Assembly: GCA_030690895.1 (NCBI GenBank)
Contig: JAUYFQ010000073.1
Span: forward strand, 1-64,000
Reading direction: 5' to 3'
DNA length: 64,000 bases
Origin: Sulfuricellaceae bacterium
GTDB lineage: Bacteria; Pseudomonadota; Gammaproteobacteria; Burkholderiales; Sulfuricellaceae
Part shown: positions 3,962-24,885 of the stretch, piece by piece
Position numbering within the stretch: the first letter of the stretch is position 1
How the letters are laid out: each line of letters opens with the position of its first letter
The notes under the pieces: model-generated
The model's input: the letters and a program-made list of their open reading frames with translations, nothing else
What the model was told of the DNA's origin: nothing
Databases searched by the model: none
Translations under genes and position numbers: made by a program

Positions 3962-4275
3962 GCGAGATACTCTCGCGCCTGGCGGAAACGCTGGAAAGCC
4001 GGAAACAGGCCGACCCGTCCTCCTCTTACGTGGCCAAACTGTACGCCAAGGGTTTGGACGCCATTCTCAAGAAGATCGGGGAAGAAGCAACCGAAACCGT
4101 GATTGCCGCGAAAGGTGGCGACCGGGAGCAAGTGGTTTATGAAATGGCGGATCTGTGGTTTCATTGTTCGGTGCTGCTGGCACAACAGGGACTTCATCCC
4201 GATGATGTCCTGGCCGAACTGGCGCGCCGTGAAGGCTTGTCCGGTCTGGTCGAGAAGGCCAGCCGCAAGTCATGA
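3958..4275 (+). CDS. hisE: phosphoribosyl-ATP pyrophosphatase
   Basis: 105 residues, a MazG-like all-alpha pyrophosphatase acting one step before HisI. The [12 protein letters not shown] metal-binding helix and the Y-E-M-A-D-L-W-F-H helix are present. It overlaps hisI by ATGA, indicating translational coupling. It is the last his gene; hinT follows after 23 bases. Confidence 0.95.
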
Positions 4276-8714: not shown

Positions 8715-10166
8715 ATGAGCACAAATTTTACCCAATCTTCGCCCCCGCCATTAAAGAGTCGACCCAGGTTGATGATCGTCGACGACGATCCTCTCATTAC
8801 CGACACGCTGCATTTTGCGTTGAGCAAGGATTTTGAGGTTTATGTGGCGGATTCTCGCGAGCAGACGGCGAGTCTGTTGCGCCAGATGGAGTCACCGCCC
8901 GAACTGGCTTTGATCGATCTTGGGCTTCCGCCCTTGCCGCATCGCCCAGACGAGGGATTTCGGTTGATCAGCGATTTGCTGGCGCTTGCCCCGGATATAC
9001 GCATCGTGGTCTTGTCTGGCCAGAATGGCGAGGCTAACGCCCGTCACGCCCGGACGCTGGGTGCGGTGGAATTCGTGGCCAAACCGTGTGAACCGTCGCG
9101 GCTTAAATCGCTGTTGTTTGATGTGATGCGCATCGCCGAGCCAGTTCGGCCAGTGGCGGATTCACCTTGTGGCATTTTGGGCGAGAGTTTCCATATTGAA
9201 AAACTGCGCCAGCAGATCGGCCAGTTTGCCAACGCGCCTTTCCCTGTTTTGATCGAGGGTGAGTCAGGCAGCGGCAAGGAACTGGTGGCCGGGTGTCTGC
9301 ACCGCATGAGCGGACGCGCTACACAGCCTTACTTGGCGCTGAACTGCGCCGCCATTGCGCCGACGCTGGTCGAGCCGACCCTGTTCGGCTATTGCAAAGG
9401 GGCGTTCACGGGCGCCAACACCACGCGCTCCGGTTATTTCGAAGACGCAAGTGATGGCGCGTTGTTTCTCGATGAAATTGGTGAGTTGCCGGTCGAGTTG
9501 CAGGCCAAGTTGCTGCGCGTGCTGGAGAACGGAGAATACCAGCGCGTGGGTGAAACCCAGACTCGACGCAGCAATGCGCGCATTATCGCGGCAACCAACC
9601 GGGACATTCGCCAGGAGATACGGGCGGGGCGTTTTCGCGCTGATCTTTATCATCGCCTGAGCGTGTTTACCCTGAATGTGCCCCCCTTGCGCGATCTGGG
9701 GGACGACCGTTTGCAATTGCTGAGTCACTTCTGTTCGTTGTATGCCAGTCAGGGAAATTGCGCGTCCTTCGTCCTTGATGCGGGCGCACGGGAACTTTGG
9801 CTGGCCTATCACTTCCCGGGTAACGTCAGGGAACTGCGCAATATCGTCATTCGCCTGATTACCAAACATTCCGGTACCGTTGTTTCGCGCGCGCAGTTAC
9901 AGATGGAACTGGAGATGGACCCAGACTCGGTGGGCGGGTTACTGCCGCTCAATGACGCACTTTCCATGGAAGAAATGGCGCGCAAGCATTTACAGGTTCA
10001 GGTCAATTTCAATCTGGATCAGACGCTGAAAACCTGGGAGCAGGCCTATGTCGAAGCCGCACTCAAGATAACCAGTGGAAATCTGAGCCAAGCGGCCAAG
10101 TTGCTGGGCATCAATCGCACCACGCTTTACAGTCGCATGCAATCGTATTCTGACGGGGAACTCTAA
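8715..10166 (+). CDS. sigma54-dependent response regulator, NtrC family
   Basis: 483 residues. It has a receiver domain (residues 18-135, acidic pocket D-D-D at 23-25, phospho-acceptor Asp68 in LIDLG). A sigma54 AAA+ domain follows, with Walker A G-E-S-G-S-G-K-E (182-189), the GAFTGA loop (229-234) that contacts sigma54, and F-L-D-E-I-G. A Fis-type helix-turn-helix lies near the C-terminus (G-N-L-S-Q-A-A-K-L-L-G-I-N-R-T-T-L). The start at 8715 removes an upstream extension overlapping the Nif3 gene. It directly abuts the ExeA-like gene, so it may control the pilus operon it heads. No partner kinase lies beside it. Confidence 0.92.
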   Translation: MSTNFTQSSPPPLKSRPRLMIVDDDPLITDTLHFALSKDFEVYVADSREQTASLLRQMESPPELALIDLGLPPLPHRPDEGFRLISDLLALAPDIRIVVLSGQNGEANARHARTLGAVEFVAKPCEPSRLKSLLFDVMRIAEPVRPVADSPCGILGESFHIEKLRQQIGQFANAPFPVLIEGESGSGKELVAGCLHRMSGRATQPYLALNCAAIAPTLVEPTLFGYCKGAFTGANTTRSGYFEDASDGALFLDEIGELPVELQAKLLRVLENGEYQRVGETQTRRSNARIIAATNRDIRQEIRAGRFRADLYHRLSVFTLNVPPLRDLGDDRLQLLSHFCSLYASQGNCASFVLDAGARELWLAYHFPGNVRELRNIVIRLITKHSGTVVSRAQLQMELEMDPDSVGGLLPLNDALSMEEMARKHLQVQVNFNLDQTLKTWEQAYVEAALKITSGNLSQAAKLLGINRTTLYSRMQSYSDGEL

Positions 10167-11566
10167 TGTATCTCGCGCATTTCGGCCTTTTCCAGCCCCC
10201 TTTCAAAATCACCGCCCATACCGATTTCTTTTATGCAGGCGGAAACCGGGGCGCCGTCCTGGATGCACTGATCTACGCTATCCGGAACGGCGAGGGCATC
10301 GTCAAGATCAGCGGCGAGGTGGGAACCGGGAAAACCATGCTGTGCCGCATGTTGCAGGAACGCTTGCCGGAAGAGGTGGAAACGGTTTACCTGGCCAACC
10401 CCAGTGTTTCGCCGGACGAAATTTTGCACGCCATTGCCTTTGAAATGCAGTTGTCTCTGCCGCGTGAGGCGTCCCGGCTTGAAGTGCTACAGGCGCTTCA
10501 GGATTATTTGCTGGAGCGGCACGCCCAGGGCAAGCAGGTCGTGGTGTTCGTCGAAGAGGCGCAAAGTATGCCGCTGGCCACGCTGGAAGAAATCCGGCTT
10601 TTGTCGAATCTGGAAACACGGCAATACAAACTCCTGCAGATTGCGCTATTCGGACAACCGGAACTGGACACGCACCTGGCCTTGCCGGAAATTCGCCAGC
10701 TCAAGGAGCGCATCACCCACAGTTTTACCCTCAAACCGTTGACTGCCCCGGAAATCCGCGACTACCTGATGTTTCGCATGCGCGCGGCCAATTATCATGG
10801 GCCAGACTTGTTCAGCCACGAGGGGATCAAGCTGATCGCGCGCGCATCACAGGGCTTGACCCGGCGCGTCAATATCATCGCCGACAAGATACTGCTGGCG
10901 GCTTTTTCGGAAAATACCCATACCCTGACCACGAAACATGCACGTGCAGCGATTCTGGATAGCGACTACGAATTGGCGACACCCGCCTGGGACTGGCGAA
11001 AACTGGCCGCAGGCGTAGCCTTGCTGGCGGTCGGGATTGTCGTCGGCGTGGCGATTCACGCCGGGATGCAGGCTGCGCCGGATAAAGCCAAACCTGTCGC
11101 ACCTGCCTCGCCCAGACAGGGCTTGCCGACGAAACCAGATGCAACGCCCCCTGTCAGCACTCCTGCCGCCCCCCTTCCTGCCGCCGCTCCGGCGCCCGCT
11201 CCGGTCGTGCTGGATGTCGTCGAGCAGCGTCTGGCTGCAACGCTGAAATGGCTGGATGCAGAACCCCCGGATACCAGCAGCATGCAGCTCATGGTGGCGC
11301 ATGACATGCAGAATTTGCGGCAACGTCTGGAGAAGATTGGCCGCCAGGTTGAAATTGACAAGATTTATGTGTACCGTACTCAGGCAGGAGGGCGCGCCGC
11401 GTGGGCGGTTTTGTACGGCAGCTACCCCAGCCGGAAAGAGCTGTATATTGCGATGCAGCAATTGCCGGCATCGCTCAAGTCGTACAGTCCCTATTTGCGG
11501 ACCGTCCAGGGAATTCGAGCTGAAATTGGCAGCTTCCATGATGAGGCCATAAATGATGCCAAATAA
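10166..11566 (+). CDS. ExeA/MshM-like AAA ATPase with membrane helix
   Basis: 466 residues. The start M-Y-L-A-H-F-G-L-F-Q-P-P-F matches GspA/ExeA/MshM proteins. Walker A G-E-V-G-T-G-K-T is at 50-57 and a Walker B-like V-V-V-F-V-E-E-A near 130. A membrane helix (about 274-297) is followed by a Pro/Ala-rich linker and a periplasmic tail that resembles a SPOR-like fold. This ATPase type helps place the secretin in the envelope. It overlaps the regulator stop by one base and the secretin start by 14 bases. The mshM assignment rests on neighbours (secretin, TPR, GspE, GspF). Confidence 0.87.
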   Translation: MYLAHFGLFQPPFKITAHTDFFYAGGNRGAVLDALIYAIRNGEGIVKISGEVGTGKTMLCRMLQERLPEEVETVYLANPSVSPDEILHAIAFEMQLSLPREASRLEVLQALQDYLLERHAQGKQVVVFVEEAQSMPLATLEEIRLLSNLETRQYKLLQIALFGQPELDTHLALPEIRQLKERITHSFTLKPLTAPEIRDYLMFRMRAANYHGPDLFSHEGIKLIARASQGLTRRVNIIADKILLAAFSENTHTLTTKHARAAILDSDYELATPAWDWRKLAAGVALLAVGIVVGVAIHAGMQAAPDKAKPVAPASPRQGLPTKPDATPPVSTPAAPLPAAAPAPAPVVLDVVEQRLAATLKWLDAEPPDTSSMQLMVAHDMQNLRQRLEKIGRQVEIDKIYVYRTQAGGRAAWAVLYGSYPSRKELYIAMQQLPASLKSYSPYLRTVQGIRAEIGSFHDEAINDAK

Positions 11567-13442
11567 CAAACTGTGGATCGCCTTGCTGGCAGCCATGCTT
11601 GCCGGGTGCGCCGCTTATTCACCCCCGCAGCCGTCGTCGGTCTACCCGCCGACTTTGCCGCCTTCGAGTAATCATATTCAGGCTGATCAGGATGCGCCGC
11701 GCGGAAATATCCCCGATCCGGTCATGACTGCTTCATTCGTTCCACCACCCAAACCTTCGGCCAAACCACAGACCTATAGCGTGGTGGTGAACGAAGTGCC
11801 GGTCAAGGAACTGCTGTTTGCGCTGGCGCGCGACAGCGGAATGAATATCGATGTTTACCCCACTATCCGGGGCGTGGTCACGCTGAACGCGATCGATGAA
11901 ACCCTTACCGCTATTCTCGACCGGGTTGTCAAGCAACTGGACGATCTGCGTTACGAAATTGACGGCAAGGTCATCCGGGTCATGCCTGATACGCCGTATC
12001 TGCAAACTTACCGGGTCAATTATGTCAATATCGAGCGCGAAACCATCCTTGAATCCACCGTGGATACTGGCGTTGCCAAAACCGGCGTAGTGGGTACCGG
12101 TGCGGGGGGCGGCGTCAATGCGTTGAGCACCAAGATCAAAAGCACCTCCAAGAGCAAGTTCTGGGAAAATTTGAAGCAAAATGTAGAGCAACTGTTAAGA
12201 GATACTGACAAGCGGGTGGAGCAGGATTCTGTACAGGCATCCGTCAAGGATTTTGCCTCGCAAAATATGTCCGGTACGACAGCGGCGAGCGGCACGGGCA
12301 GCGCGGGTTTCAATGCCGGTGGTGCAGGCGGGACGCAGGTCAAGGGCGATAAGAACACCGTGACGGGCAGTTCCGGGTCGGGCGCTGCGGGTGCGGGCGA
12401 ACAACTGGTCCAGTCTGATGCGGAAGCTTCCCAGAAAAGAGCCCATGAAGCGGGCGTGCAACGCTTCTTGTTTCGCGAGAAGGCTTCCGTGATCGCCAAC
12501 CCGGAAACCGGCATGTTGGCGGTGCGCGCGACCTCCCGGCAGCACCAGGCCATGCAGGATTTTCTCAAGGGCGTCCTGGAGGTGGCAAAACGGCAGGTGC
12601 TGATCGAGGCGACCATCGTCGAGGTCAAACTGAGCGATGCCTACCAGGGGGGCGTGGACTGGGCGCGCGTGGCGGACACCGGAAAAATGGCTCAGGATCT
12701 CATTCCCGTCAAACCGGGTGTTCCTGCTGGTTTTACCCCACATGGTTTTTCATTTGTTTTCAAAACCAACAGTGCAACTTTCGGCAATATCAGCACGGCG
12801 GTCAAGCTACTGGAAACTTTCGGCGATCTCAAGGTGCACTCCAGTCCCAAGCTGATGGCGCTGAATAACCAGACGGCAGTGCTGCAGGCCGTCGTTAACC
12901 AGATCTACTTTAATGTGAAGGTGACGCCAGGCTCCTTGTCGACTACGGGCACAATGCTGACGCCGACTGTTTATGAAACTCTGCCTCAGAGTGTCGCAGA
13001 GGGTGTGGTGATGGCCGTGACACCGCAAATAAACGAAAACGGGCGCGTTGCGCTGACCATCCGCCCTACCATTACCCGGATTGTCAGTTACGTCAATGAT
13101 CCCAACCCGGATCTCGCCAAAGAGGGCGTCACTAACCCGGTGCCGGTTCTTCAGGTGCAGACCATGGAATCAGTGTTGCAGGTCAAGAGCGGGCAGGTGT
13201 TGGTGATGGGTGGCCTGATGCAGGACAAGATTATCAAGAAGCGGGATGGCTTACCCATTTTGTCCAGAATCCCGACTTTTGGGGATATTTTCAGTTACCG
13301 CGACGATGTCAGCGAGAAAAGTGAGCTGGTGATTTTTCTCAAGCCGACTGTGCTCGACAGCGTCGGAACAGAGGACGAAGACCGGTTGATGGCGGATTAC
13401 CTGCATCTGTTGCCCAAGCCAACTGCTGCTTCCAGAAGATGA
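11553..13442 (+). CDS. mshL: MshL-type secretin lipoprotein
   Basis: 629 residues. A lipoprotein signal with lipobox L-A-G-C is followed by a Pro-rich spacer, a STN/secretin N domain (V-P-V-K-E-L-L-F-A-L-A-R-D-S-G-M-N), a Gly/Ser-rich insert around residues 235-295, and the secretin domain. The closing motif V-L-V-M-G-G-L-M-Q-D near residue 550 is typical. It forms the outer-membrane channel of MSHA-type pili. The start could be the ATG at 11553 or the next codon (11556). Its stop overlaps the TPR-protein start by four bases. Confidence 0.92.
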   Translation: MMPNNKLWIALLAAMLAGCAAYSPPQPSSVYPPTLPPSSNHIQADQDAPRGNIPDPVMTASFVPPPKPSAKPQTYSVVVNEVPVKELLFALARDSGMNIDVYPTIRGVVTLNAIDETLTAILDRVVKQLDDLRYEIDGKVIRVMPDTPYLQTYRVNYVNIERETILESTVDTGVAKTGVVGTGAGGGVNALSTKIKSTSKSKFWENLKQNVEQLLRDTDKRVEQDSVQASVKDFASQNMSGTTAASGTGSAGFNAGGAGGTQVKGDKNTVTGSSGSGAAGAGEQLVQSDAEASQKRAHEAGVQRFLFREKASVIANPETGMLAVRATSRQHQAMQDFLKGVLEVAKRQVLIEATIVEVKLSDAYQGGVDWARVADTGKMAQDLIPVKPGVPAGFTPHGFSFVFKTNSATFGNISTAVKLLETFGDLKVHSSPKLMALNNQTAVLQAVVNQIYFNVKVTPGSLSTTGTMLTPTVYETLPQSVAEGVVMAVTPQINENGRVALTIRPTITRIVSYVNDPNPDLAKEGVTNPVPVLQVQTMESVLQVKSGQVLVMGGLMQDKIIKKRDGLPILSRIPTFGDIFSYRDDVSEKSELVIFLKPTVLDSVGTEDEDRLMADYLHLLPKPTAASRR

Positions 13443-14662
13443 GCCTATTGATGCAGGCCTTGAAAAAGGCCGAAGAAAAGCAGCAGGAAGCGCCGGATGG
13501 CCCAAAGGGGGAGACTGAGCCGACATTGCGTGAACTGGCGGATGAACTGTCCCTGGAACCGGCTGTGGTCGCCGCGCCGGATGGCCATGCAGAAGATCGA
13601 TCTGGCGTGCGGAAAGATGCATCAAAAAGCGGGCGTGAGGATTTTCAGACTGCTGCCAACGTATTCTCAGCCAAAGCGCCTCCAGGTGGCGGGCAGAGGC
13701 GTCTGACCCCCGTACTGATTGGGGTCGCCGCGCTGGTTCTGGCCGTGGGTGGCGCCTATGTCTATGTTGAAATCAACCACCCGTCCTTGTTGCGCAATCT
13801 GATCAAGGGATTAACGTCCGGATCGGTTGCCGTGGTTCCGCAGAATGCGCCTGTGCAAACCGTCCAGTCTGGCGATGCCGGGGGTGCGGTCCACATGGTT
13901 CCGGCGGATGAGTTGCCTCAAGCGGAAAGCGGGCCTGAATCTGCGCTTCACGCAGCACGCGACGTTGCACCAATTAAAACTGAAGCCGGGAGAGAACCCC
14001 AAACAGAACCACGTTTTAGTCATAAAGCGGCCACGTCTCCCGTGTCTTCTGGCCAACCTGAAACGGGTATCAGGATATTTCGTGCTGAGCCAGGGGTTAT
14101 CAACCCGGAGCTGTCGAAAGCCTACGAGGCCATGCAGGCGGGACGTCTGGAGGCCGCTCGGGCGCATTACCAGCGGGTGTTGCAGCAGGAGCCGCGCAAT
14201 CTGGATGCCTTGCTGGGTCAGGCGGCCATTGAGGCGAGAACGGGCCAGGCAAGTGAAGCAGGCAGGCTGTATTTGCGCGTACTGGAAGTGGAGCCTGGGA
14301 ACCTGTACGCCCAGGCCGGGTTTCTGGGGTTGATGGGCGGCGCCGATCCGGCTGGCAGTGAAGCGCGCCTCAAGCAGTTGCTGGCGACTCAACCGGCGGC
14401 TTTCCTGTATTTTGCCCTCGGCAACCTGTACGCCGGGCATGGTCGCTGGCCGGAGGCGCAGCAGGCTTATTTCCAGGCTTTTCATCTGGAACCGGCGAGT
14501 GCCGACCATGCTTACAATCTGGCGGTCAGCCTGGATCAGCTCAATCAACCCAGGCAGGCGCTGGACTATTACAAACAGGCCTTGATGCTTTCAAGGGGGC
14601 GCGGCGCGAGTTTTGATGTGCGTGCGCTGGAAGCGAGGATTTCCCAGTTGCAGGGGGGGTGA
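13439..14662 (+). CDS. MshN-like TPR protein, inner-membrane anchored
   Basis: 407 residues. The N-terminus M-S-L-L-M-Q-A-L-K-K-A-E-E-K is shared with MshN/GspB-like proteins. One membrane helix lies at about 95-115. The C-terminal half (from about residue 225) is tetratricopeptide repeats (A-Y-E-A-M-Q-A-G-R-L-E-A-A; A-L-G-N-L-Y-A-G-H-G-R-W). It probably bridges the assembly platform and secretin. Coupled to mshL through an ATGA overlap. Confidence 0.82.
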   Translation: MSLLMQALKKAEEKQQEAPDGPKGETEPTLRELADELSLEPAVVAAPDGHAEDRSGVRKDASKSGREDFQTAANVFSAKAPPGGGQRRLTPVLIGVAALVLAVGGAYVYVEINHPSLLRNLIKGLTSGSVAVVPQNAPVQTVQSGDAGGAVHMVPADELPQAESGPESALHAARDVAPIKTEAGREPQTEPRFSHKAATSPVSSGQPETGIRIFRAEPGVINPELSKAYEAMQAGRLEAARAHYQRVLQQEPRNLDALLGQAAIEARTGQASEAGRLYLRVLEVEPGNLYAQAGFLGLMGGADPAGSEARLKQLLATQPAAFLYFALGNLYAGHGRWPEAQQAYFQAFHLEPASADHAYNLAVSLDQLNQPRQALDYYKQALMLSRGRGASFDVRALEARISQLQGG

Positions 14663-14681: not shown

Positions 14682-14786
14682 AACCACGGGGTACACGGGG
14701 CGCACGGGGGAAAATCTATGCGGGCACAAAAAACGGGGACAAGAGATACCTTGGTATTCCCCGTGCTCCCCGTGTGCCCCGTGGTT
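14682..14786. repeat. long inverted repeat of CACGGGG units between TPR and GspE genes
   Basis: The left arm 14682-14710 (ACCACGGGG, TACACGGGG, CGCACGGGG units) is complementary to the right arm 14759-14786 with very few mismatches, around a loop of about 48 bases. RNA from it could form a very stable stem within the operon. It may be a dispersed repeat, a transcript-stability element, or a partial terminator; no T-run follows. Confidence 0.75.
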
Positions 14787-14803
14787 CAAATAAGGTTTTC
14801 AGT

Positions 14804-16507
14804 ATGACTGAGCAGCGAAAAAAACTCCGGTTAGGCGAGTTGCTGGTACAGCAGGGGCTGATCAGCCAGGACCAGCTGCGCATTGCCCTGATGGAGCAGA
14901 CCGAGCACGATATGCCGCTCGGGCGGCAACTGGTGCGGCTGGGCTTCGTTACCGAAGCCATGATTCGCGACATCCTGGCGCATACCATTGGTCAGGAAGG
15001 GATAGATCTATCCAATGTGGTGGCCGATTCCGATGCCCTGAACATGGTTCAGGAAGATTTTGCGCGGCGCTACCGCTTGTTGCCCATCGCCTACAACAAG
15101 ACGCGCAGCGAGCTTCTGGTCGCCATGAGCGACGTATTCAATGTCGTTGCGCTGGACTTGTTGCGCGCGCAACTAGGCGGCCACATCGAGATTCGCACAG
15201 TACTGGCGGGCGAGGCGCAACTGGAAGAATGGATCGACCGCTTTTATGGTTTCGAGCTTTCCGTCGATGGCATCCTGCGCGAGATCGAAACCGGCGAAAT
15301 CGACTACCAGAGCCTGTCTTCCGGTAACGAGGAATACACCCAGCCGGTTGTTCGCCTGGTTGGCGCACTGCTGGTCGATGCGGTCAAGCGCGGTGCATCG
15401 GACATTCACTTTGAGCCTGAATATGCTTTCTTGCGTGTTCGCTATCGTATCGACGGTGTGCTGGAACAGGTGCGCAGCTTGCACAAGACCTACTGGCCTG
15501 GCATTGCCGTGCGGCTGAAAGTGATTAGCGGCATGAATATCGCCGAAACGCGCGCGCCTCAGGATGGACGCCTGTCCCTGAATTTGAATGGGCGGCCGAT
15601 CGATTTTCGCGTGGCATCCCAGCCGACGATCTACGGCGAGAACATCGTGCTGCGCGTGCTGGATCGGGAGAAATCCATCATCCCGCTCAACCGGATGGGC
15701 CTGGGTGATGATACCCAGTCCAAACTCAAACTCATGATGGCCAGGCCTGAGGGCATCATGATCGTGACCGGCCCGACGGGCAGCGGCAAGACCACCACGC
15801 TGTATTCCATGTTGAGCCACCTGAATACCGAGTCGGTGAACATCATGACGCTGGAAGACCCGGTGGAATACCCGGTGACCATGATGCGCCAGACATCGGT
15901 CAACGAGCTGGCCAAAATCGATTTTGCCAACGGTATTCGCTCGATGATGCGCCAGGACCCGGACATTATCCTGGTCGGCGAAGTGCGCGACCGGGAAACG
16001 GCCGACATGGCTTTCCGGGCGGCCATGACCGGCCATCAGGTTTTTACCACGCTACACACCAATTCGGCTCTGGGCACATTCCCCCGCCTGCTGGATATTG
16101 GCATTCTGCCCGACATCATGGCGGGCAATATCATCGGCGTCATCGCTCAGCGTTTGGTTCGCCTGCTCTGCCTGCATTGTCGTGAGAGTTATCAGCCGGG
16201 GGCAGGTGAAAAGCTGCTGCTGGGACTTCATCCGGATGATACGCAGCAGATTTTTGAAGCCAGGGGCTGCCCGCGTTGCAACTTCAAAGGGTACAGCGGC
16301 AGGATGGCGCTGATGGAGCTGTTGCACATGGACGGCGATCTGGATGAACTGGTGGCGCGCCGCGCCACCGCGCGCGAACTGCGTTATGTGGCGCTGGAAA
16401 AAGGTTTTCAGACGCTGATGGATGACGGTATCCGGCGGATTCTGGATGGGAGCACCAGCCTGGCAGAGGTTTCGCGCGTGATCGATATGACCGGGCGGTT
16501 GCATTGA
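14804..16507 (+). CDS. mshE: MshE/GspE-type pilus assembly ATPase
   Basis: 567 residues. The N-terminal MshEN domain (L-G-E-L-L-V-Q-Q-G-L-I; L-G-R-Q-L-V-R-L-G-F-V) is a fold known to bind cyclic di-GMP in some MshE proteins. The core carries Walker A G-P-T-G-S-G-K-T-T-T, Walker B D-P-D-I-I-L-V-G-E-V-R-D, the His box, and a C-terminal four-cysteine zinc site (C-L-H-C and C-P-R-C). Start 14804 is used because the upstream extension is encoded by the inverted repeat. It powers extension of the pilus. Confidence 0.93.
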   Translation: MTEQRKKLRLGELLVQQGLISQDQLRIALMEQTEHDMPLGRQLVRLGFVTEAMIRDILAHTIGQEGIDLSNVVADSDALNMVQEDFARRYRLLPIAYNKTRSELLVAMSDVFNVVALDLLRAQLGGHIEIRTVLAGEAQLEEWIDRFYGFELSVDGILREIETGEIDYQSLSSGNEEYTQPVVRLVGALLVDAVKRGASDIHFEPEYAFLRVRYRIDGVLEQVRSLHKTYWPGIAVRLKVISGMNIAETRAPQDGRLSLNLNGRPIDFRVASQPTIYGENIVLRVLDREKSIIPLNRMGLGDDTQSKLKLMMARPEGIMIVTGPTGSGKTTTLYSMLSHLNTESVNIMTLEDPVEYPVTMMRQTSVNELAKIDFANGIRSMMRQDPDIILVGEVRDRETADMAFRAAMTGHQVFTTLHTNSALGTFPRLLDIGILPDIMAGNIIGVIAQRLVRLLCLHCRESYQPGAGEKLLLGLHPDDTQQIFEARGCPRCNFKGYSGRMALMELLHMDGDLDELVARRATARELRYVALEKGFQTLMDDGIRRILDGSTSLAEVSRVIDMTGRLH

Positions 16508-16601: not shown

Positions 16602-17804
16602 ATGCTGAGTTTCCAATATACCGCTATCGACAAGGACGGCAATCAGGCACGCGGGAAGCTGAGCGCGGTGAACGAGGTCGATCTGGAACTGCGCTTGCAG
16701 CGCATGGGGATGGACCTGATCACGGCCAGCAAGCTGGGGCAGTCCAGGCATTTGGGCGGCATGGCGGTGACGAGACAGGATCTCATCACCTTCTGTTTCC
16801 ACATGGAGCAATTGTCGCGTGCGGGTATCCCCGTGCTGGAAGGGTTAACCGACTTGCGCGATAGTATCGAACAGCCGAGATTCAGGGAGGTGCTGTCCGC
16901 CATGCTGGAAGACATGGAAGGCGGAAAAACCCTGTCGCAAGCCATGGCGGAGCATCCTGCCGTATTCGACAGTCTGTTTGTCAGCCTGATTCGCGCGGGC
17001 GAGCAGAGTGGAATGATGACGGAAGTGTTCCAGAACCTGGCGACGACTTACCGTTGGCAGGACGAGCTGGTTGCCCAGACGCGACGTTTGCTGATGTATC
17101 CGGCCATGGTGTTTGTGGTGGTCGGCGCCGTCATCGTTTTTCTGATGATGTACCTTGTCCCGCAACTGGTTTCCTTCCTGAAAAATATGGGGCAGGCGCT
17201 GCCCCTCCAGACGCGGGTGCTGATATTTGTGTCCGATGTGTTTGTCCATTACTGGCCGCTGGTATTCGGCCTGCCCATCGCACTGGTGGTCGCGGCCATG
17301 GTCGCGATACAGAAAAGTGACGGTGCACGCTATGCCTGGGACGGTATGAAGCTGCGCCTGCCCTTTGTCGGGCCAATCTTGAAAAAGATCATTCTTGCCC
17401 GTTTCGCCAATTTTTTTGCACTCATGTATCAGTCCGGGATTACCGTTCTTGACGCGATGAAAACCAGTGAAGGGATCGTCGTCAATCGGGTCATTGCCGA
17501 CGGACTGGCTCGCGCGGGCCAGCAGATTGCGGCCGGAGACAGTGTGGCGGGCAGTTTTGAAACAACCGGTATTTTTCCACCGCTGGTCATACGCATGTTG
17601 CGCGTGGGCGAGGCGACCGGCGGACTGGATACGGCCCTGCTTAATGTCACGTATTTTTACAACCGCGAAGTCAAGGAGTCCACCGAAAAACTGCTCAAAA
17701 TGCTGGAACCCGCGTTGACGGTTGGGCTGGGAATCGTCCTGGCGATCATCATGTTTTCAGTATTGACCCCGATTTACGACATTCTTGGAAAAATGAAGTT
17801 CTGA
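16602..17804 (+). CDS. mshG: GspF/PilC/MshG-type inner-membrane platform protein
   Basis: 400 residues, the usual length. Two repeated GspF domains (about 65-185 and 270-390) are each preceded by cytoplasmic helices, with three membrane segments, including V-F-V-V-V-G-A-V-I-V-F-L-M-M near 175 and the final one near 380. The L-S-R-A-G-I-P-V-L-E-G-L and M-L-R-V-G-E-A-T-G-G-L-D motifs are family signatures. It is the platform on which MshE acts. The next gene starts two bases after its stop. Confidence 0.93.
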   Translation: MLSFQYTAIDKDGNQARGKLSAVNEVDLELRLQRMGMDLITASKLGQSRHLGGMAVTRQDLITFCFHMEQLSRAGIPVLEGLTDLRDSIEQPRFREVLSAMLEDMEGGKTLSQAMAEHPAVFDSLFVSLIRAGEQSGMMTEVFQNLATTYRWQDELVAQTRRLLMYPAMVFVVVGAVIVFLMMYLVPQLVSFLKNMGQALPLQTRVLIFVSDVFVHYWPLVFGLPIALVVAAMVAIQKSDGARYAWDGMKLRLPFVGPILKKIILARFANFFALMYQSGITVLDAMKTSEGIVVNRVIADGLARAGQQIAAGDSVAGSFETTGIFPPLVIRMLRVGEATGGLDTALLNVTYFYNREVKESTEKLLKMLEPALTVGLGIVLAIIMFSVLTPIYDILGKMKF

Positions 17805-17806
17805 TC

Positions 17807-19330
17807 ATGGCATCCCAGATCATCATATGCATCACGCTGGATATTGCTTTCGTTGCCGTTATTCGCGACGACGTGCCGGTCGATTACCAGAATTTTCATG
17901 CCACAGACGAGGGATTTCGCACGTTTGGCGACTTTTTGAAAGCGCATGACGAGTTGCCGATCCATCTTATGGTGGACTCGGTCGAAGAGGATTACCACAT
18001 GGAAACCTTGCCGCATGTGGGCGGATCTGCGCGGCATGAATTGGTGAACCGCAAGCTCAGGCAGGTATATCGTAACGGTTTTTTCTGCGCGGCCTGGATT
18101 CAGGGGCGGGATGCGGGCAAGCGCCGCGACGACCATTATCTTTTTGTCGCGGTGACAAACACCGATATCCTGAAACCCTGGCTTGGCGTGATAGAAGCCA
18201 GCCAGGCAGCGTTGGCCGGCGTGTATCTTCTGCCCATGGTGACCGAAGCGGTGCTGGCTTATATGGGGTTCGGCCAAAGTACCTTGCTGGTGGTGACGTG
18301 GCACAACCTGGGTTTGCGGCAAAGTTATTTTCAGAATGGCAAACTCCGGGCAAGCCGGATTGCAGTGCATGACAACGATGGCGCGCCAGAGCATTTTTTC
18401 AGGGATGAAATCGGGAAAACCCGCTTGTACCTCAACAGTTTGCGCCTGACGGCGCGAGATGAGCGTCTTGACCTGCTGTTGATTGACCCGCGCGATTTGC
18501 TGGGTGGCTTGCAGCAACTGCTGGATGCTGACCCCACTCTTGATTGCGTCCGATTTGGGCAGGACAAGTTGGCTTCCTGGTTCCCCGGCATCCTCAATAA
18601 TGCCAGTTCGTACATGCTCCATCTGTTAATGCTGGCGCGTCGTCGCCCCGCGCGCAGCCTTGCGCCGGATTCTGTCATCCGGCGTTACTGGCAATGTCAG
18701 CAGCGCCGATTGCTCTATCGTATCAGCGTGGTGACACTTGCGTTGTCATGTGCCTGGATTGGAACCAATGTGGTGTTGAAGCATCAGGCAGAGGCAAAAA
18801 TACAGGAAATCGAGCGGCAAATTCAGTTGCAACGATCGGCATACCAGACCGAGGCCCGGAGTTTCCCATTGGCGCCTGCTTCGGCAGACGACATGGGAAA
18901 GGCGGTTGAGCTTGCTGCGGCCATCCAGCGGGGAAACAGAACCCCGGAACGACTGATGCAAACGGCCAGTCGTGCAATGGAACATCATCCGGAAATCATG
19001 CTGATGCGCCTGGACTGGTATCGGGAGGGGGCAGACCCCGGAGGGAGCACGCTCCAACCCTCTGCTTCTAACAACGGCGAGCATGAATCGGGTGAGTTGC
19101 GAGGTGAAATCAAACACTTCAGGGGGGATTATCGTTCGGCAGTGGGCAACGTCCAGGCGTTTGTCGGGCATTTGCGTCAGGACCGTGAAGTCGAAAGCGT
19201 TTCGGTGACACAGTTGCCACTGAATGCGCGCTCCAGTTCGGTGTTGAGCGGGAACACGCTGGATACGCTGGCGACCGGCGAGATGCGAGCTGAATTTGGC
19301 GTTCGCCTGACGCTCAAGGGACGGCCATGA
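17807..19330 (+). CDS. PilM/PilN- or MshI-like pilus assembly protein
   Basis: 507 residues. The N-terminal 290 or so residues look like a cytoplasmic actin-like/GspL-type region with weak sequence identity. One membrane helix follows at about 300-325 (V-V-T-L-A-L-S-C-A-W-I-G-T), then a coiled-coil-like segment (I-Q-E-I-E-R-Q-I-Q-L-Q) and a PilN-like C-terminal domain. The position between GspF and a PilO-like gene fits an MshI/PilM-PilN fusion. The call rests mainly on topology and context. It overlaps the next gene by four bases. Confidence 0.65.
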   Translation: MASQIIICITLDIAFVAVIRDDVPVDYQNFHATDEGFRTFGDFLKAHDELPIHLMVDSVEEDYHMETLPHVGGSARHELVNRKLRQVYRNGFFCAAWIQGRDAGKRRDDHYLFVAVTNTDILKPWLGVIEASQAALAGVYLLPMVTEAVLAYMGFGQSTLLVVTWHNLGLRQSYFQNGKLRASRIAVHDNDGAPEHFFRDEIGKTRLYLNSLRLTARDERLDLLLIDPRDLLGGLQQLLDADPTLDCVRFGQDKLASWFPGILNNASSYMLHLLMLARRRPARSLAPDSVIRRYWQCQQRRLLYRISVVTLALSCAWIGTNVVLKHQAEAKIQEIERQIQLQRSAYQTEARSFPLAPASADDMGKAVELAAAIQRGNRTPERLMQTASRAMEHHPEIMLMRLDWYREGADPGGSTLQPSASNNGEHESGELRGEIKHFRGDYRSAVGNVQAFVGHLRQDREVESVSVTQLPLNARSSSVLSGNTLDTLATGEMRAEFGVRLTLKGRP

Positions 19331-19947
19331 AGTTCTCGAATGCTGACTGGCTGGCGCTAAGGATGCCCATCGCGGTAATTGTAGTGGTCATGCTGTCCGG
19401 TGCTGCTCTGGTGGCAGGCACGCATGCTGCGCTTAAAAAAACCAACGCTAACGTCATCGCGAGCGAGAAGTCATTGAAAGAAGCACGTGACCAGCTTTAC
19501 AAGTCTGGAGAGGAGAAAAACCGGATTTTGCGTTTTAGCCAGTCTTACCTCGACTTGCAGCAAGCAGGGTTTGTCGGCGAGGAGGAGCGCATCAACTGGG
19601 TCGATGCCTTGCGAGCCACCAGCCTGCAACTCAAGCTATTCGGCGCCAATTATCAGATCGAAGCCCGTCAGGCATACAAGCCACAGGGTTTGCCGGATAC
19701 GGGAAATTTCCACCTGTATCGCTCAGTCATGAAGCTGGATCTGGGTTTGCTGCATGAAGAGGACTTGATGCGGTTTCTTGGCGCGTTGGCCAACCAGAAA
19801 GTTGGCTTGTTCTCGTTGCAGACCTGTTCCCTGCAAAACAGCCGGTCGGGCGGCGCAGTGCAGACAAAGGGGCAGCCCAATCTCAAGGCCGATTGCACGA
19901 TAGACTGGATCACCCTTTCCGAAAGCAAAGAGCAGGAATCGCCGTGA
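19327..19947 (+). CDS. PilO/MshJ-like pilus assembly protein
   Basis: 206 residues. One N-terminal membrane helix (about residues 14-34) is followed by a coiled coil (about 40-75) and a small globular domain, the architecture of PilO/MshJ. Sequence conservation is low. It starts inside the stop of the preceding gene and ends in a GTGA overlap with the next, so the three are a tightly coupled unit of inner-membrane alignment proteins. Confidence 0.65.
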   Translation: MKFSNADWLALRMPIAVIVVVMLSGAALVAGTHAALKKTNANVIASEKSLKEARDQLYKSGEEKNRILRFSQSYLDLQQAGFVGEEERINWVDALRATSLQLKLFGANYQIEARQAYKPQGLPDTGNFHLYRSVMKLDLGLLHEEDLMRFLGALANQKVGLFSLQTCSLQNSRSGGAVQTKGQPNLKADCTIDWITLSESKEQESP

Positions 19948-20456
19948 AAGTCGCCACTATCCTCCTTCTTGTTGCACTCATGCCTATCTCGCCAGTTCAG
20001 GCGGAACCTAATGCGCCAGTTCCTGCGGCGCCCAAGGCAACTATTTTAGCCGCGCCCAAGGCGCTGGGTCGTTTGTTTTTTACGCCTGAGCAGCGCGCCA
20101 GAATGGATGTGGCCAGGCAGAGCGAGCGTAGCGTCACCCTGGATCCCGAGCAGGAAGCGCCCGAACCTGCGCCGTCAACCGTTACCCTGAACGGCATCAT
20201 CACCCCCAGCAACGGGCAACCCATGGTCTGGATCAATGGTCGTCTGCAGGAGCAGGGGCGTGCGCCCGCCCCAGTCGTCATGCCGAAAACAGGTCGCCAG
20301 GTCAGCGTGGTTTCCCCCGATGGCAGCAACCGGATTTCCTTGAAAGTCGGCCAAAGCATCGATACCGGTAGTGGCAAAGTGGAGGAGGGGTGGCGTCAAA
20401 ACACGTCCGCCACGCAAGCAGAACCCCGAGAACCAGATAAAAATGATCGCCAATGA
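19944..20456 (+). CDS. MshK-like periplasmic pilus protein
   Basis: 170 residues from the GTG at 19944, which overlaps the previous stop. An N-terminal signal peptide (K-V-A-T-I-L-L-L-V-A-L-M-P-I-S-P-V-Q-A, cleavage after QA) is followed by a Pro/Ala-rich region and a small C-terminal domain with V-T-L-N-G-I-I-T-P-S-N-G-Q-P-M-V-W-I-N-G, like the GspC/MshK beta domain that contacts the secretin. An ATG upstream at 19893 would bury the signal peptide and is rejected. It overlaps the next gene by 14 bases. Confidence 0.65.
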   Translation: MKVATILLLVALMPISPVQAEPNAPVPAAPKATILAAPKALGRLFFTPEQRARMDVARQSERSVTLDPEQEAPEPAPSTVTLNGIITPSNGQPMVWINGRLQEQGRAPAPVVMPKTGRQVSVVSPDGSNRISLKVGQSIDTGSGKVEEGWRQNTSATQAEPREPDKNDRQ

Positions 20457-22881
20457 TCCTCATTCTCGCCCTGGAAATTCGCAGCGCGGCGTGGCCTTGA
20501 TTCTCCTGCTCATGCTGGTCAGCGTGGGGGCGTTGGCGGTGTTTGTGACTGGACTGAATCGGGCGTCGCAGCAGTTGGAACGCGACAGGATTACCAATCA
20601 AGCGCTGGCTCAGGCAAAGGATGCGTTGATTGGGTATGCGGTAACGTATCGGGATAAGCATCCTGACGAGGTGTTCGGTTATTTGCCCTGCCCGGATGCT
20701 GATGGCAACGGCGTGGCCGAATCGCCCTGTGGCGGCACAGATGTTTCTGTGATTGGCCGCTTACCTTGGAAAACGCTAGGCTTACCGCCAATTCGGGATG
20801 GCGACGGGGAGTGTCTATGGTACGCAGTCTCCGGACACGCAAAAAACAACCCCAAAACAGATGAATTGAATTGGGATACCGTTGGCCAGTTTGAAATCAG
20901 AAATGCCGCCAACACCGTACTTGTTAACGCAGGCGTCCACAATACCCCCTGGGCTGTGATAATGGCTCCACGCTCTGTTATCAGCAGTCAAGACCGTTTT
21001 GCAGGGGGGGGGGGCTCCGAATGTGGGGGCAACAATACTGTTGCCGCCTATTTGGATGGCGCCGATCCTATTTATGCTGGCACAACCCCAGCAGCCAATG
21101 CGAACACTGTTCTGACGTTTTCAACAGCAGAAAGCATTCTCAGCAACACCAATAATGATCGAGGGCTATGGATTGCGGCCAGGGAAATTTTTGATCCCAT
21201 AAAAAAACGTAGCGATTTTTTGAAACAAATCAGAAGCCTGTTGAATGATCCGTACTTTGGCATGGTCGGCATTTCTGGTGTTACTAAGGGCACGGACAGC
21301 ATCTCATGCACCGACCTTAATTTGAGTATTGAAAACCAGGGTTTTTGTAAAAACTGGAAGGAAATGTTGTTACTAAGTCAGTTGCCTTCACCGTCATCTA
21401 TCACGATAGATGGCATGGCATCGGCTACATGTACGCGAGTTCTCCTCTTTGGAGGACAGCAAATAGCCAGTCAGATCCGTTTGACCTTGGCCGACAAGGG
21501 AAAATCACTCAATTACCTGGAAGACCCAAATCTGGCTGTATTCAAGGCGCCGATCGCAGATGGCAGCACCTTTAGTGGTATCTATGATTTCGATAAAGCC
21601 ACCCCAAGTTCTGATGTCATTCGATGCATCAATGGGGGCGCAGTACAAAAGTCATTTGCAGGTAATTTTGATACTTTCTCTGCTACCGGTACTCTGGTGA
21701 GCAACATTGACGGCATTAAAACTTACGATACTGGCGTCACCACCAATACGACAGACAAGACGCTCACCATGAGTGGCGTCACAGGTACTGCGGGCGCTTG
21801 TTTCTGGTATCCCGACGCCATTCCTCTCGCAGGTAAAACCCTGCGAGCCTTTTACGATTACCGGTTTTCCACTCCAGATACTTACGCAACGACGGGTGCC
21901 GCCAGGGATCGTGGAAATGGCTTTACCTTTCAGATGGTACGCAGCGATTTCGGTTACTTCCCGGACGAATGCGGTTCGGAAGCCGATATGGGCGCATTGA
22001 CACTGGGCGGGTCTGGATGGAACAGCGACTCCCTTCTCATTGAAACCGATGTCCGCAAAAATTCCACGAAGGATGACCCTGCTGAAAATCATACCGCCAT
22101 CATGTATGGCGGCAACCTGACTCATTCGCTTACCAATGGCAACCCCACTACTGCTTGTAATGGCACTGCCGCAGGCTGCCGCCATAATCCAGCCAACAAA
22201 TTTGAAGAATCACCGGGTACGCTTTCGCACAACCAGCGTATCGAAATTCATACCGGTTGCAATTCGACTTGTTCCACTTGTAACCCGGCCAGCCATGTCG
22301 CACCCAACACTTATGCCAGGATCAGCACCTGGGTCGATTGCATTGACTGCGATGATGTGGCCACCAATGTGCGGGATGCCGAACTCATAACATATCAGCA
22401 GAACAGGGATTTTAGTGCGCCAGGAAACTGGGGCGGAACAAGCTGGATGCTGGGGAGTAGCGTTTTCTCTCATGTGGCGGGAGCATATGCAGCCACACTC
22501 CCGAATACAGCACTGAGAAGCCCCCCTTTTGCAGGAACAACTTTTGAAGTGGCCATGAAAATTGCAACCAGTAGCCCAGGGAAACTTGTGATTTCAATTG
22601 GCGGGGTCTCCGCTACAGCCATCGATCTGGTGGCGGGGAGCATCGATCATGTGGCGCGAATTACCGCAACGTCGACCGGCGCGCTGACGTTGAAGCCCGA
22701 TGCCACATGGGAAGGGAGCATTGACAATGTCAGCGTTAAACGCCTGCCAACTATTCAGCGTTGCGTTGCGCTCGACCCAAAACTAAATTCAATGTATTTC
22801 GGGTTTACCGGTGGATTCCGTTCCAGCGTTAATGACAGCCAAGGCGTGACCTTCCGAAATTTCTACCTGCGTAGTGAATAA
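20443..22881 (+). CDS. large pilin-associated protein with lectin-like domain
   Basis: 812 residues. It has a single hydrophobic N-terminal helix (Q-R-G-V-A-L-I-L-L-L-M-L-V) of PilX/MshP type. A domain then follows that is shared with the downstream pilin (D-A-L-I-G-Y, L-P-C-P-D, G-R-L-P-W-K-T-L-G-L). From about residue 410 comes a ConA-like/L-type-lectin-like region (R-G-N-G-F-T-F-Q; S-L-L-I-E-T-D-V-R; N-H-T-A-I-M-Y; closing Y-F-G-F-T-G-G-F). About 120 residues resembling a carbohydrate-binding beta-sandwich interrupt that region just before its last strands. It is Cys-rich. I infer a tip or minor-pilin adhesin. An 11-G tract interrupts the early part (21004-21014). Confidence 0.7.
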   Translation: MIANDPHSRPGNSQRGVALILLLMLVSVGALAVFVTGLNRASQQLERDRITNQALAQAKDALIGYAVTYRDKHPDEVFGYLPCPDADGNGVAESPCGGTDVSVIGRLPWKTLGLPPIRDGDGECLWYAVSGHAKNNPKTDELNWDTVGQFEIRNAANTVLVNAGVHNTPWAVIMAPRSVISSQDRFAGGGGSECGGNNTVAAYLDGADPIYAGTTPAANANTVLTFSTAESILSNTNNDRGLWIAAREIFDPIKKRSDFLKQIRSLLNDPYFGMVGISGVTKGTDSISCTDLNLSIENQGFCKNWKEMLLLSQLPSPSSITIDGMASATCTRVLLFGGQQIASQIRLTLADKGKSLNYLEDPNLAVFKAPIADGSTFSGIYDFDKATPSSDVIRCINGGAVQKSFAGNFDTFSATGTLVSNIDGIKTYDTGVTTNTTDKTLTMSGVTGTAGACFWYPDAIPLAGKTLRAFYDYRFSTPDTYATTGAARDRGNGFTFQMVRSDFGYFPDECGSEADMGALTLGGSGWNSDSLLIETDVRKNSTKDDPAENHTAIMYGGNLTHSLTNGNPTTACNGTAAGCRHNPANKFEESPGTLSHNQRIEIHTGCNSTCSTCNPASHVAPNTYARISTWVDCIDCDDVATNVRDAELITYQQNRDFSAPGNWGGTSWMLGSSVFSHVAGAYAATLPNTALRSPPFAGTTFEVAMKIATSSPGKLVISIGGVSATAIDLVAGSIDHVARITATSTGALTLKPDATWEGSIDNVSVKRLPTIQRCVALDPKLNSMYFGFTGGFRSSVNDSQGVTFRNFYLRSE
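21004..21014 (+). repeat. G11 homopolymer in the adhesin reading frame
   Basis: Eleven consecutive G encode Gly-Gly-Gly and part of a fourth glycine near residue 190 of the lectin-like protein. A tract this long is prone to slipped-strand change; a gain or loss of one base would truncate the protein. Confidence 0.9.
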
Positions 22882-22953: not shown

Positions 22954-23181
22954 ATGAGTCAGTTCAATATTGCAGAAGCAAAATCACATTTCTCCGAACT
23001 GGTGAAAAAGGCCATGTTGGGCGAGGAAGTGGTGATTGCCAAGGGCAACAAGCCTGTCCTGAAGCTGGTGCTGGTGGCCGAGGCGGCAAGGGAAAGAATG
23101 CCGGGGTCGGCAAAAGGCAAAATTACTTATTTGGCGCCGGATTTTGGCAATATTCCGGAAGATTTTCAGGATTACGTCTGA
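22954..23181 (+). CDS. Phd/YefM-family antitoxin
   Basis: 75 residues. The fold starts M-S-Q-F-N-I-A-E-A-K-S-H-F-S-E-L-V and continues G-E-E-V-V-I-A-K-G-N-K-P-V, the DNA-binding part of Phd antitoxins. The short C-terminal tail would bind the toxin. The strong ribosome site AAGGAGG at 22942-22948 fixes the start at 22954. Its last base is the first base of the toxin gene. A weak promoter-like pair (TTGTAC 22903, TAAGAT 22926, 17-base spacer) lies upstream; such pairs are usually autoregulated. Confidence 0.88.
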   Translation: MSQFNIAEAKSHFSELVKKAMLGEEVVIAKGNKPVLKLVLVAEAARERMPGSAKGKITYLAPDFGNIPEDFQDYV

Positions 23182-23567
23182 TGCGTCTTCTACTGGATAC
23201 CCCTGTTTTTCTGTGGTGGGTTAGCGATGCGCCGGAGTTGTCCGCCAAGGCCCGTGCGACGATCCGGAAGGGACAGAACGAGTGTTTCCTGAGCGTCGCG
23301 AGCGCGTGGGAAATAGCGATCAAAGTGAGTACGGGAAAGCTGGCCTTGTCACAACCGGTTGAACGCTTCGTTCCAGAACAGCTTGCCGCCAATGGTTTTC
23401 GGCTGCTGGGCATCGATTTTCGGCATGTCGCAAGAGTGGAAACCCTGCCATTTCACCACCGTGACCCATTTGACCGCTTGCTCGCGGCACAGGCCATGAG
23501 CGAGAAGATGCCTGTCGTTTCGGCTGATGCGGCGCTATCCGAATATGGTATCAAGCGAATCTGGTGA
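23181..23567 (+). CDS. PIN-domain (VapC-like) toxin ribonuclease
   Basis: 128 residues. The PIN-domain acidic residues are visible: Asp6 in R-L-L-L-D-T, Glu in A-W-E-I-A-I-K (near 48), Asp in H-R-D-P-F-D-R-L-L (near 93), and Asp in V-V-S-A-D (near 115). It is of the subgroup that pairs with Phd-type antitoxins. VapC enzymes cleave RNA; the target cannot be told from sequence. One-base overlap with the antitoxin. Confidence 0.9.
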   Translation: MRLLLDTPVFLWWVSDAPELSAKARATIRKGQNECFLSVASAWEIAIKVSTGKLALSQPVERFVPEQLAANGFRLLGIDFRHVARVETLPFHHRDPFDRLLAAQAMSEKMPVVSADAALSEYGIKRIW

Positions 23568-23621
23568 ATTCCATCGGGGGCACAGGGTGGGATGGTCATA
23601 AACGTGCAAAAAGGAGACATC

Positions 23622-24188
23622 ATGAATCTTGCCATGCCAGAACACCCCATTGATGTCCTGGAATATCTGGAAGGGGAGCTTCAAAGCGACATCCGCCACG
23701 AATACCTTGCCGGGCAGGTTTATGCCATGGCCGGCGCGGGAGAAAAGCATAACCGCATCAGCCTGAATGTCGCCTTCCACCTGCGCGCTGCCGCGCGCGG
23801 CAAGCCTTGTGGCGTATTCATTAGCGACATGAAAGTGCGGGTGGAGCAAAACGATGCTTTTTATTACCCCGACGTGATGGTGACATGCGACCCACAAGAC
23901 ACGGAATCCCTCTATAAACGATCCCCTTGCCTGATCGTCGAAGTGCTCTCTCCTTCCACGGAAGCTATCGACCGGCGAGAGAGATTTTTTGCCTACCGCA
24001 ATCTGCCCTCGTTGCGCCATTATCTGCTGGTTTCACAGGATCAGCGCCGGGTCGAGTGGCATAGTCGCGGCGAGGGTGGCGGCTGGCTACGCGCTGTGCT
24101 TGAAAACACAGGAACGATGGAAATTTCCTGCGAGGGCTTGGATGCCGTTTTTTCATTGGACGATATCTATGAAGATGTGTCGCTTTAA
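23622..24188 (+). CDS. Uma2-family (DUF820) PD-(D/E)XK nuclease-like protein
   Basis: 188 residues from the ATG at 23622 (ribosome site AAAGGAG just upstream). Uma2 core motifs are H-E-Y-L-A-G-Q-V-Y-A-M-A-G near residue 35, Y-Y-P-D-V-M-V near 85 and L-I-V-E-V-L-S-P-S-T near 108; these carry the D and E-X-V residues of the nuclease fold. The family is abundant in cyanobacteria and scattered elsewhere, of unknown function, and often near TA pairs or mobile genes. Its 3' end overlaps the next pilin gene by 20 bases in another frame. Confidence 0.85.
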   Translation: MNLAMPEHPIDVLEYLEGELQSDIRHEYLAGQVYAMAGAGEKHNRISLNVAFHLRAAARGKPCGVFISDMKVRVEQNDAFYYPDVMVTCDPQDTESLYKRSPCLIVEVLSPSTEAIDRRERFFAYRNLPSLRHYLLVSQDQRRVEWHSRGEGGGWLRAVLENTGTMEISCEGLDAVFSLDDIYEDVSL

Positions 24189-24885
24189 GCCGTCTGGCTT
24201 TACGCTGATCGAACTGGCGCTGGTGCTGGTTGTCGTGGCTTTGCTGATGGGGGGGCTATTGGTTCCGTTGTCCATGCAGATCGAGCAGCAGAAGACCCGT
24301 GAAACTTTGAAAGCGATGGAGGAAATCAAGGAGGCGTTGATTGGGTATTCAGTTGCCAATGACCGCCTCCCCTGTCCGGCAACCGTTGCAAGTAACGGTG
24401 CCGAGGCACCAGTTGGGGGTGGTGTTTGCACGCAAACAGAGGGGTTTGTGCCTGTTCAAACGCTAGGCTTGAGTCTGCCAGTTGATACTCAGGGGCTACT
24501 ACTGGACTCGTGGGGAAATCGAATTCGCTATCGCGTTACTGATTCCAATACGAATGCCTTTACTACTACGAATGGCATGAAGACAGCAACCATGAGCACT
24601 CTCTCACCAGACTTGCATGTGTGCGCGAGTAATGTCGGCATCACCGGCGTCACCTGTGGCACAGCGCTGTCATTGGTGAATACAGCCCCAGTACTTATTC
24701 TTTCCCAAGGAAAAAACTGGGCAAGCGTTCCATCAATTGACGAAGCTGCCAATATCAATGGCGATATTGTGTTTGTCAGTCACACCCTAAGTGATGCAGT
24801 CGGCAATGAATTCGACGACCTCGTTACCTGGCTTTCCCCCAACATTCTGTTCAACCGCATGGTGGCTGCAGGACGTTTGCCCTGA
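24169..24885 (+). CDS. type IV pilin-like minor pilin
   Basis: 238 residues. Prepilin signal M-K-M-C-R-F-K-P-S-G followed by F-T-L-I-E-L; cleavage after Gly10, with Glu at mature position 5. Then a hydrophobic helix and a globular domain starting K-E-A-L-I-G-Y-S-V-A-N-D-R-L-P-C-P. The same domain, down to a L-D-S-W-G-N-R-I-R-Y segment, occurs in the lectin-like protein upstream, so the two are likely partners. The start lies within the Uma2 gene with no clear ribosome site; the ATG at 24175 is an alternative. It probably ends the pilus operon. Confidence 0.83.
   Translation: MKMCRFKPSGFTLIELALVLVVVALLMGGLLVPLSMQIEQQKTRETLKAMEEIKEALIGYSVANDRLPCPATVASNGAEAPVGGGVCTQTEGFVPVQTLGLSLPVDTQGLLLDSWGNRIRYRVTDSNTNAFTTTNGMKTATMSTLSPDLHVCASNVGITGVTCGTALSLVNTAPVLILSQGKNWASVPSIDEAANINGDIVFVSHTLSDAVGNEFDDLVTWLSPNILFNRMVAAGRLP

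Follow-up and report, generated by a model that had tools for sequence, protein, structure and literature searches.

In Neisseria, the pilC1 and pilC2 genes carry a poly-G tract of 9–20 nucleotides within the reading frame of a pilus adhesin, where slipped-strand mispairing is described (PMC5953494, PMC13190605); a length of at least 9 is the usual criterion for phase-variable poly-G/C tracts (PMC5953494). In Bordetella, bvgS, the fim promoters and bapC are homopolymer-tract genes, reported in an analysis that used a second-order model (PMC1891110), and in Campylobacter G11 tracts tend toward deletion (PMC8355987). The poly-G switches of these three genera belong to host-adapted bacteria. In Streptococcus sanguinis, the lectin module of the modular pilin PilC is concanavalin A-like, and a location of this pilin at the pilus tip was proposed (PMC9934059). 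All these statements follow excerpts of the cited reports. Among the literature matches listed, none concerned a lectin modular pilin switched by poly-G and none phase variation in the genus considered here, which is not a proof of absence.

The window analysed here, a stretch of 64,000 nucleotides, belongs to a MAG (G000) of 3.54 Mb in 186 contigs, 97.9% complete. A run of eleven G occupies positions 21004–21014 of the plus strand, exactly as given in the preliminary description, and forms the longest homopolymer of the window, in which no second G run exceeds 7. It lies in frame within an 812-residue ORF (20443–22881, +) that encodes a pilus protein, in agreement with the surface-type protein proposed initially. 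The in-frame context reads GCA GGG GGG GGG GGC TCC (Ala-Gly4-Ser), with the run beginning at the first base of codon 188 and supplying the four glycines of codons 188–191. The length is above the threshold of at least 9 G or C used for phase-variable loci (PMC5953494), which speaks for a switch.

The reading frame stays open with G8, G11 and G14, giving 811, 812 and 813 residues, respectively. With G10 or G13 the products have 223 or 224 residues, and with G9 or G12 they have 236 or 237. The stop codons are found at 21113–21115 (+) in the case of G10 and at 21153–21155 (+) in the case of G12, and the out-of-frame tail added after a slip comprises 33–47 residues. A change of a single base in the run turns the frame off, as is expected of slipped-strand loci. 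A truncation after about 190 residues had been predicted; the frame is indeed lost there, but the products continue to residue 223 (G10) or 237 (G12).

The tract-bearing gene (P0001) encodes, according to its structural model and its relatives, a modular type IV minor pilin with a C-terminal legume-lectin fold, and it is placed in an MSHA-like cluster. The AlphaFold model calculated with 82 sequences has a pLDDT of 83.6 (an earlier model from 6 sequences, with a pLDDT of 44.5, was set aside) and consists of a helix at residues 17–67, a globular pilin module and a C-terminal module. The pilin module comprises residues 1–397 (20443–21633, +), with a prepilin-type N-terminus in which the long hydrophobic helix starts directly after the conserved Gly16, the putative prepilin cleavage site; there is no Glu at +5. 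The glycine run is situated in a coil (residues 176–199) that is among the less confident stretches of the modelled pilin module and whose length varies among the relatives, the latter being a point in favor of a switch. The remaining residues, 398–812 (21634–22878, +), are modelled as a legume-lectin fold. Superposition on the legume-lectin domain of Methanocaldococcus jannaschii (7elv) gives a Z score of 21.9 and an rmsd of 2.4 over 203 aligned residues, plant lectins reach a Z score of about 20, and the best Foldseek match of the module has an E value of 5e-7. An extra segment of ~120 residues within the lectin module (aa 646–766; 22378–22740, +) is missing in the five relatives of alignment A1.

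At the level of sequence families, the whole protein matches no Pfam family at E ≤ 0.1, hence no PilC/PilY1 family, and the sole NCBIfam match is GspK, below threshold, with nothing over the cut-off. The single match in the PDB sequence search (E 0.23) was judged to be due to chance, and a tblastn search of plasmid records with the protein gave no match.

The lectin fold is located wholly downstream of the tract, and consequently a slip in either direction would remove it. The lectin-like nature of the region, as first proposed, is supported by the model and by the structure matches. With 3n+2 G's in the run (8, 11, 14), the full protein would be made, combining a pilin module entering the filament with a legume-lectin module able to bind glycans. 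A one-base slip during replication would leave the 223- or 237-residue fragment, lacking half of the pilin module and the entire lectin, so that the pili would be without this lectin until a second slip restored the frame. We consider it plausible from the sequence that the lectin pilin is phase-variable through the G11 run, and we assign a probability of roughly 45% to the reading in which the run acts as a mutable switch for the translation of a modular minor type IV pilin, probably situated at the pilus tip. Some slippage is expected at any G11; a rate sufficient for switching, and a use of switching beyond its mere possibility, are presumed here. The target would be a typical one, a lectin-bearing pilin, which argues against the coincidental origin of the run considered below.

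The gene follows a series of pilus assembly genes on the plus strand. The series starts with an AAA ATPase with a SPOR-like end (10166–11566; PF13401), which we take to be MshM/ExeA-like, and continues with an MshL-like secretin (11553–13442; PF00263), a TPR protein found by profile search (13439–14662), presumably MshN-like by its position, an MshE-like extension ATPase (14774–16507; PF00437, with NF053729 above the cut-off) and a GspF/PilC-type platform protein (16602–17804; PF00482). The extension ATPase contains an MshEN domain of the c-di-GMP type, scoring 57.9 bits against a cut-off of 23.1 for PF05157. Three further assembly genes (17807–20456) show no confident family match and are assumed, by position only, to be MshI/J/K-like. 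A prepilin gene (24169–24885, +) with PF07963 and TIGR02532 above their cut-offs is located downstream. The modular pilin is encoded together with pilus assembly genes. Since the MshL model TIGR02519 scores 240.9 bits, below the cut-off of 250.2, the cluster is named only MSHA-like.

Between the lectin pilin and the next prepilin gene, the region 22954–24188 contains a Phd/YefM-type antitoxin gene, a PIN-domain toxin-like gene and a Uma2-family gene. This region looks like an insertion because in two congeners (G003 and G006) the prepilin gene follows almost directly after the tip-type gene. In a separate family member (G016), the TPR (MshN-like) gene has a GC-rich repeat-like insertion that contains an in-frame G10 run, at positions 4041–4050 of locus L159.

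In respect to the reliability of the run itself, a homopolymer error in sequencing or assembly, with a true length other than 11, would be conceivable in a MAG of 186 contigs, and this assembly does show G-run artefacts: contig C44 ends in a run of 47 G, which is probably of such origin. The G11 run, on the other hand, is internal to a 75-kb contig, and with exactly 11 G the ORF aligns over its length with five relatives, whereas a length wrong by one or two bases would disrupt the frame; an error of three bases, however, would pass unnoticed. We regard such an error as very improbable.

Runs of this length are rare within the window, where Markov models of orders 1–5 predict 0.005–0.037 G/C runs of at least 11. 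Genome-wide, whether they are in excess depends on the null model. Seventeen G/C runs of at least 9 were counted, namely 16 internal ones and the G47 at the contig end, and the 16 compare with 49, 29, 6.6 and 10.3 expected under orders 0, 1, 2 and 3. For runs of at least 11, 4 internal ones were found, with 3.9, 2.0, 0.29 and 0.52 expected, respectively. Either the window or 145 kb served as the training set of these models, in place of the whole genome, and both versions are much alike. An excess of long runs is therefore present under the second- and third-order models only, which weakens the case for a switch, and the 2–4 runs of at least 11 expected under orders 0 and 1 are compatible with a purely coincidental tract. 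In such a case the run would be just four glycine codons in a tolerant loop, mutable in principle, with slips being harmful and purged and with no selected switch. For the gene itself, 20,000 synonymous shuffles that kept the protein and the codon usage of the gene gave runs of at least 11 G in 0.7% of cases (P 0.007), which favors the switch over coincidence.

Other long runs in the same genome were used for comparison; besides those named below, the genome has G/C runs such as intergenic C11, G12, C13. The genes cheA (C10), addA (C9) and mnmG (C9) have no run of at least 8 in any of the seven congeners (0/7 for each), a result counted on the side of the switch; some of the addA orthologues are incomplete or divided in two, and a contig end truncates one mnmG. 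In the cheA-like gene (contig C88), the in-frame C10 encodes Pro-Pro-Pro, and the prolines are kept in 8/8 species, with the C10 spelling occurring in this genome only. The C9–C10 runs of these three genes look unselected, and long runs of this kind in conserved genes, none of them common to the congeners, count against a switch and in favor of coincidence. A DNA methylase gene (N6_N4_Mtase, contig C74) has an in-frame G9 run. Methylase genes of this type of function are frequent phase-variable targets elsewhere. The gene was tried as a further tract control and dropped, as it has no full-length counterpart in the seven congeners.

In the case of mismatch repair, MutS is found above the cut-off and MutL is not found in the MAG, a combination that was counted as favorable to switching. 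A weak MutL match (20 bits) was discarded, as the ORF containing it was judged to encode a sensor-kinase-like protein. With the MAG being 97.9% complete, the absence of MutL is possibly a gap; a real loss is also possible.

Relatives of the gene were detected by six-frame search in 61 of 100 near genomes, its own included, and the GTDB genomes yielded 250 confirmed relatives, the best 80 being kept. Those from the same genus are labelled Sulfurimicrobium (L083, L114) or Nitrosomonadales FeB_15 (L109). The tract site was compared in 84 loci (including the best 80 of 250), in 30 loci (L012–L041) that include the gene itself, and in L055; some of these represent one gene taken from two collections, for example L013/L070 and L019/L109. 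Only one of the seven congeners, G001, has a run at the site, where PGGGAECGG with G8 corresponds to AGGGGSECGG with G11 in the window, both in frame. The match itself argues for a switch, and its restriction to 1/7 congeners against. The other aligned loci have no G/C run above 5 at the site, except for one C7 (L148), which is likewise unfavorable. When a sample of 399 genomes of the order was searched by pattern, the G run followed by ECGG was found solely in G000 and G001, with 397 others lacking it, and an 18-base pattern at the tract was not found in viral contigs. The conservation of the site no further than G001 is consistent with coincidence.

This distribution also bears on programmed slippage of the RNA polymerase or the ribosome, by which full and short products would be made side by side in a constant proportion and no heritable switch would exist. 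Long homopolymers can indeed cause transcript slippage, but the run is missing in nearly all relatives, and we regard this explanation as very improbable.

The gene of G001 is divided between two contigs with 23 bases in common just past the tract, and its second half shows no match to the lectin part. The contig break just past the G8 might reflect length variation but was put aside as ambiguous. In a tree of the pilin module (21 rows), G000 and G001 are not resolved as sisters, G001 being nonetheless the most similar row (69% identity). The module composition varies on a shared pilin base, as seen in L018, L055 and L105, with other or shorter C-termini and frames of about 350 to 1300 residues. 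In Accumulibacter bin_122 (L089, 7100–7260) a tandem duplication of ~22 bases, just before the lectin module, carries a frameshift that disrupts the gene.

Within the genus, G runs recur in this gene, contrary to what coincidence would suggest. Runs of at least 8 G are present in 4 of 8 species, as compared with 0.47 expected from synonymous shuffles (none of 500 shuffles reached 4), which supports a switch. G11 (G000) and G8 (G001) share one site, and the G8 runs of G003 and G006 lie at two further sites; these last two runs arose separately, as the two species are close relatives with differing sites. The other 97 relatives show no G run of at least 8 (1.09 expected). The shuffled set comprised 106 genes, with duplicates removed, N replaced by A and start codons assigned by rule; the split gene of G001 makes two rows, giving 9 rows for the 8 species. 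In 143 kb of cluster DNA (121 kb from the seven congeners and 22 kb from the window), four G/C runs of at least 8 are found, all of them within the lectin pilin gene, which makes up ≈8% of this DNA, again in favor of a switch. The recurrence is taken as moderate support, because the test was conceived after the tract had been seen and G8 is below the criterion of at least 9.

The proposal of a candidate phase-variable locus is thus upheld in respect to the anatomy and the length of the tract, but it is weakened by the scarcity of runs at the site (G8 in 1/7 congeners) and by comparable runs in conserved genes. We put coincidence somewhat short of an even chance. If the G11 run is a switch, as in our preferred reading, it would suggest bet-hedging of attachment outside a host, in an environmental lineage, with respect to surfaces, biofilm and perhaps pilus-dependent phages. 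The broader proposal, that in the free-living relatives of Sulfurimicrobium slippage of poly-G runs in the lectin pilin produces mixed populations with sticky and non-sticky pilus tips, with G runs having arisen repeatedly in this gene and the missing MutL raising the switching rate, is unlikely though compatible with the observations.

In comparison with the known systems, as far as excerpts of the reports describe them, the locus resembles Neisseria pilC in having an in-frame poly-G run in a gene for a pilus-associated adhesin. The pilC run is located in the signal-peptide region, whereas here it lies ~190 codons into a pilin-lectin gene; Neisseria PilC is PilY1-like, belongs to host-adapted bacteria and is known to switch, whereas the present case is a candidate recognized from sequence. 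The PilC of S. sanguinis is similar in architecture, with the lectin module placed after the pilin part, and in its proposed location at the tip, but it comes from another phylum, has no homopolymer switch in its description, and its pilin module is much smaller than the one found here. As in Bordetella, G/C runs above 8 in betaproteobacteria are tied to surface structures, but there the lengths of the tracts come from measurements on many isolates, and here from one MAG. The cluster is akin to the MSHA-type type IV pilus of Vibrio and Shewanella in its similar gene set, its secretin close to MshL and its ATPase with an MshEN domain, differing in that the MshL model stays just under the cut-off. 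The principle of a pilus adhesin switched by poly-G is already known from Neisseria pilC; a lectin-bearing modular pilin as its target would be new.
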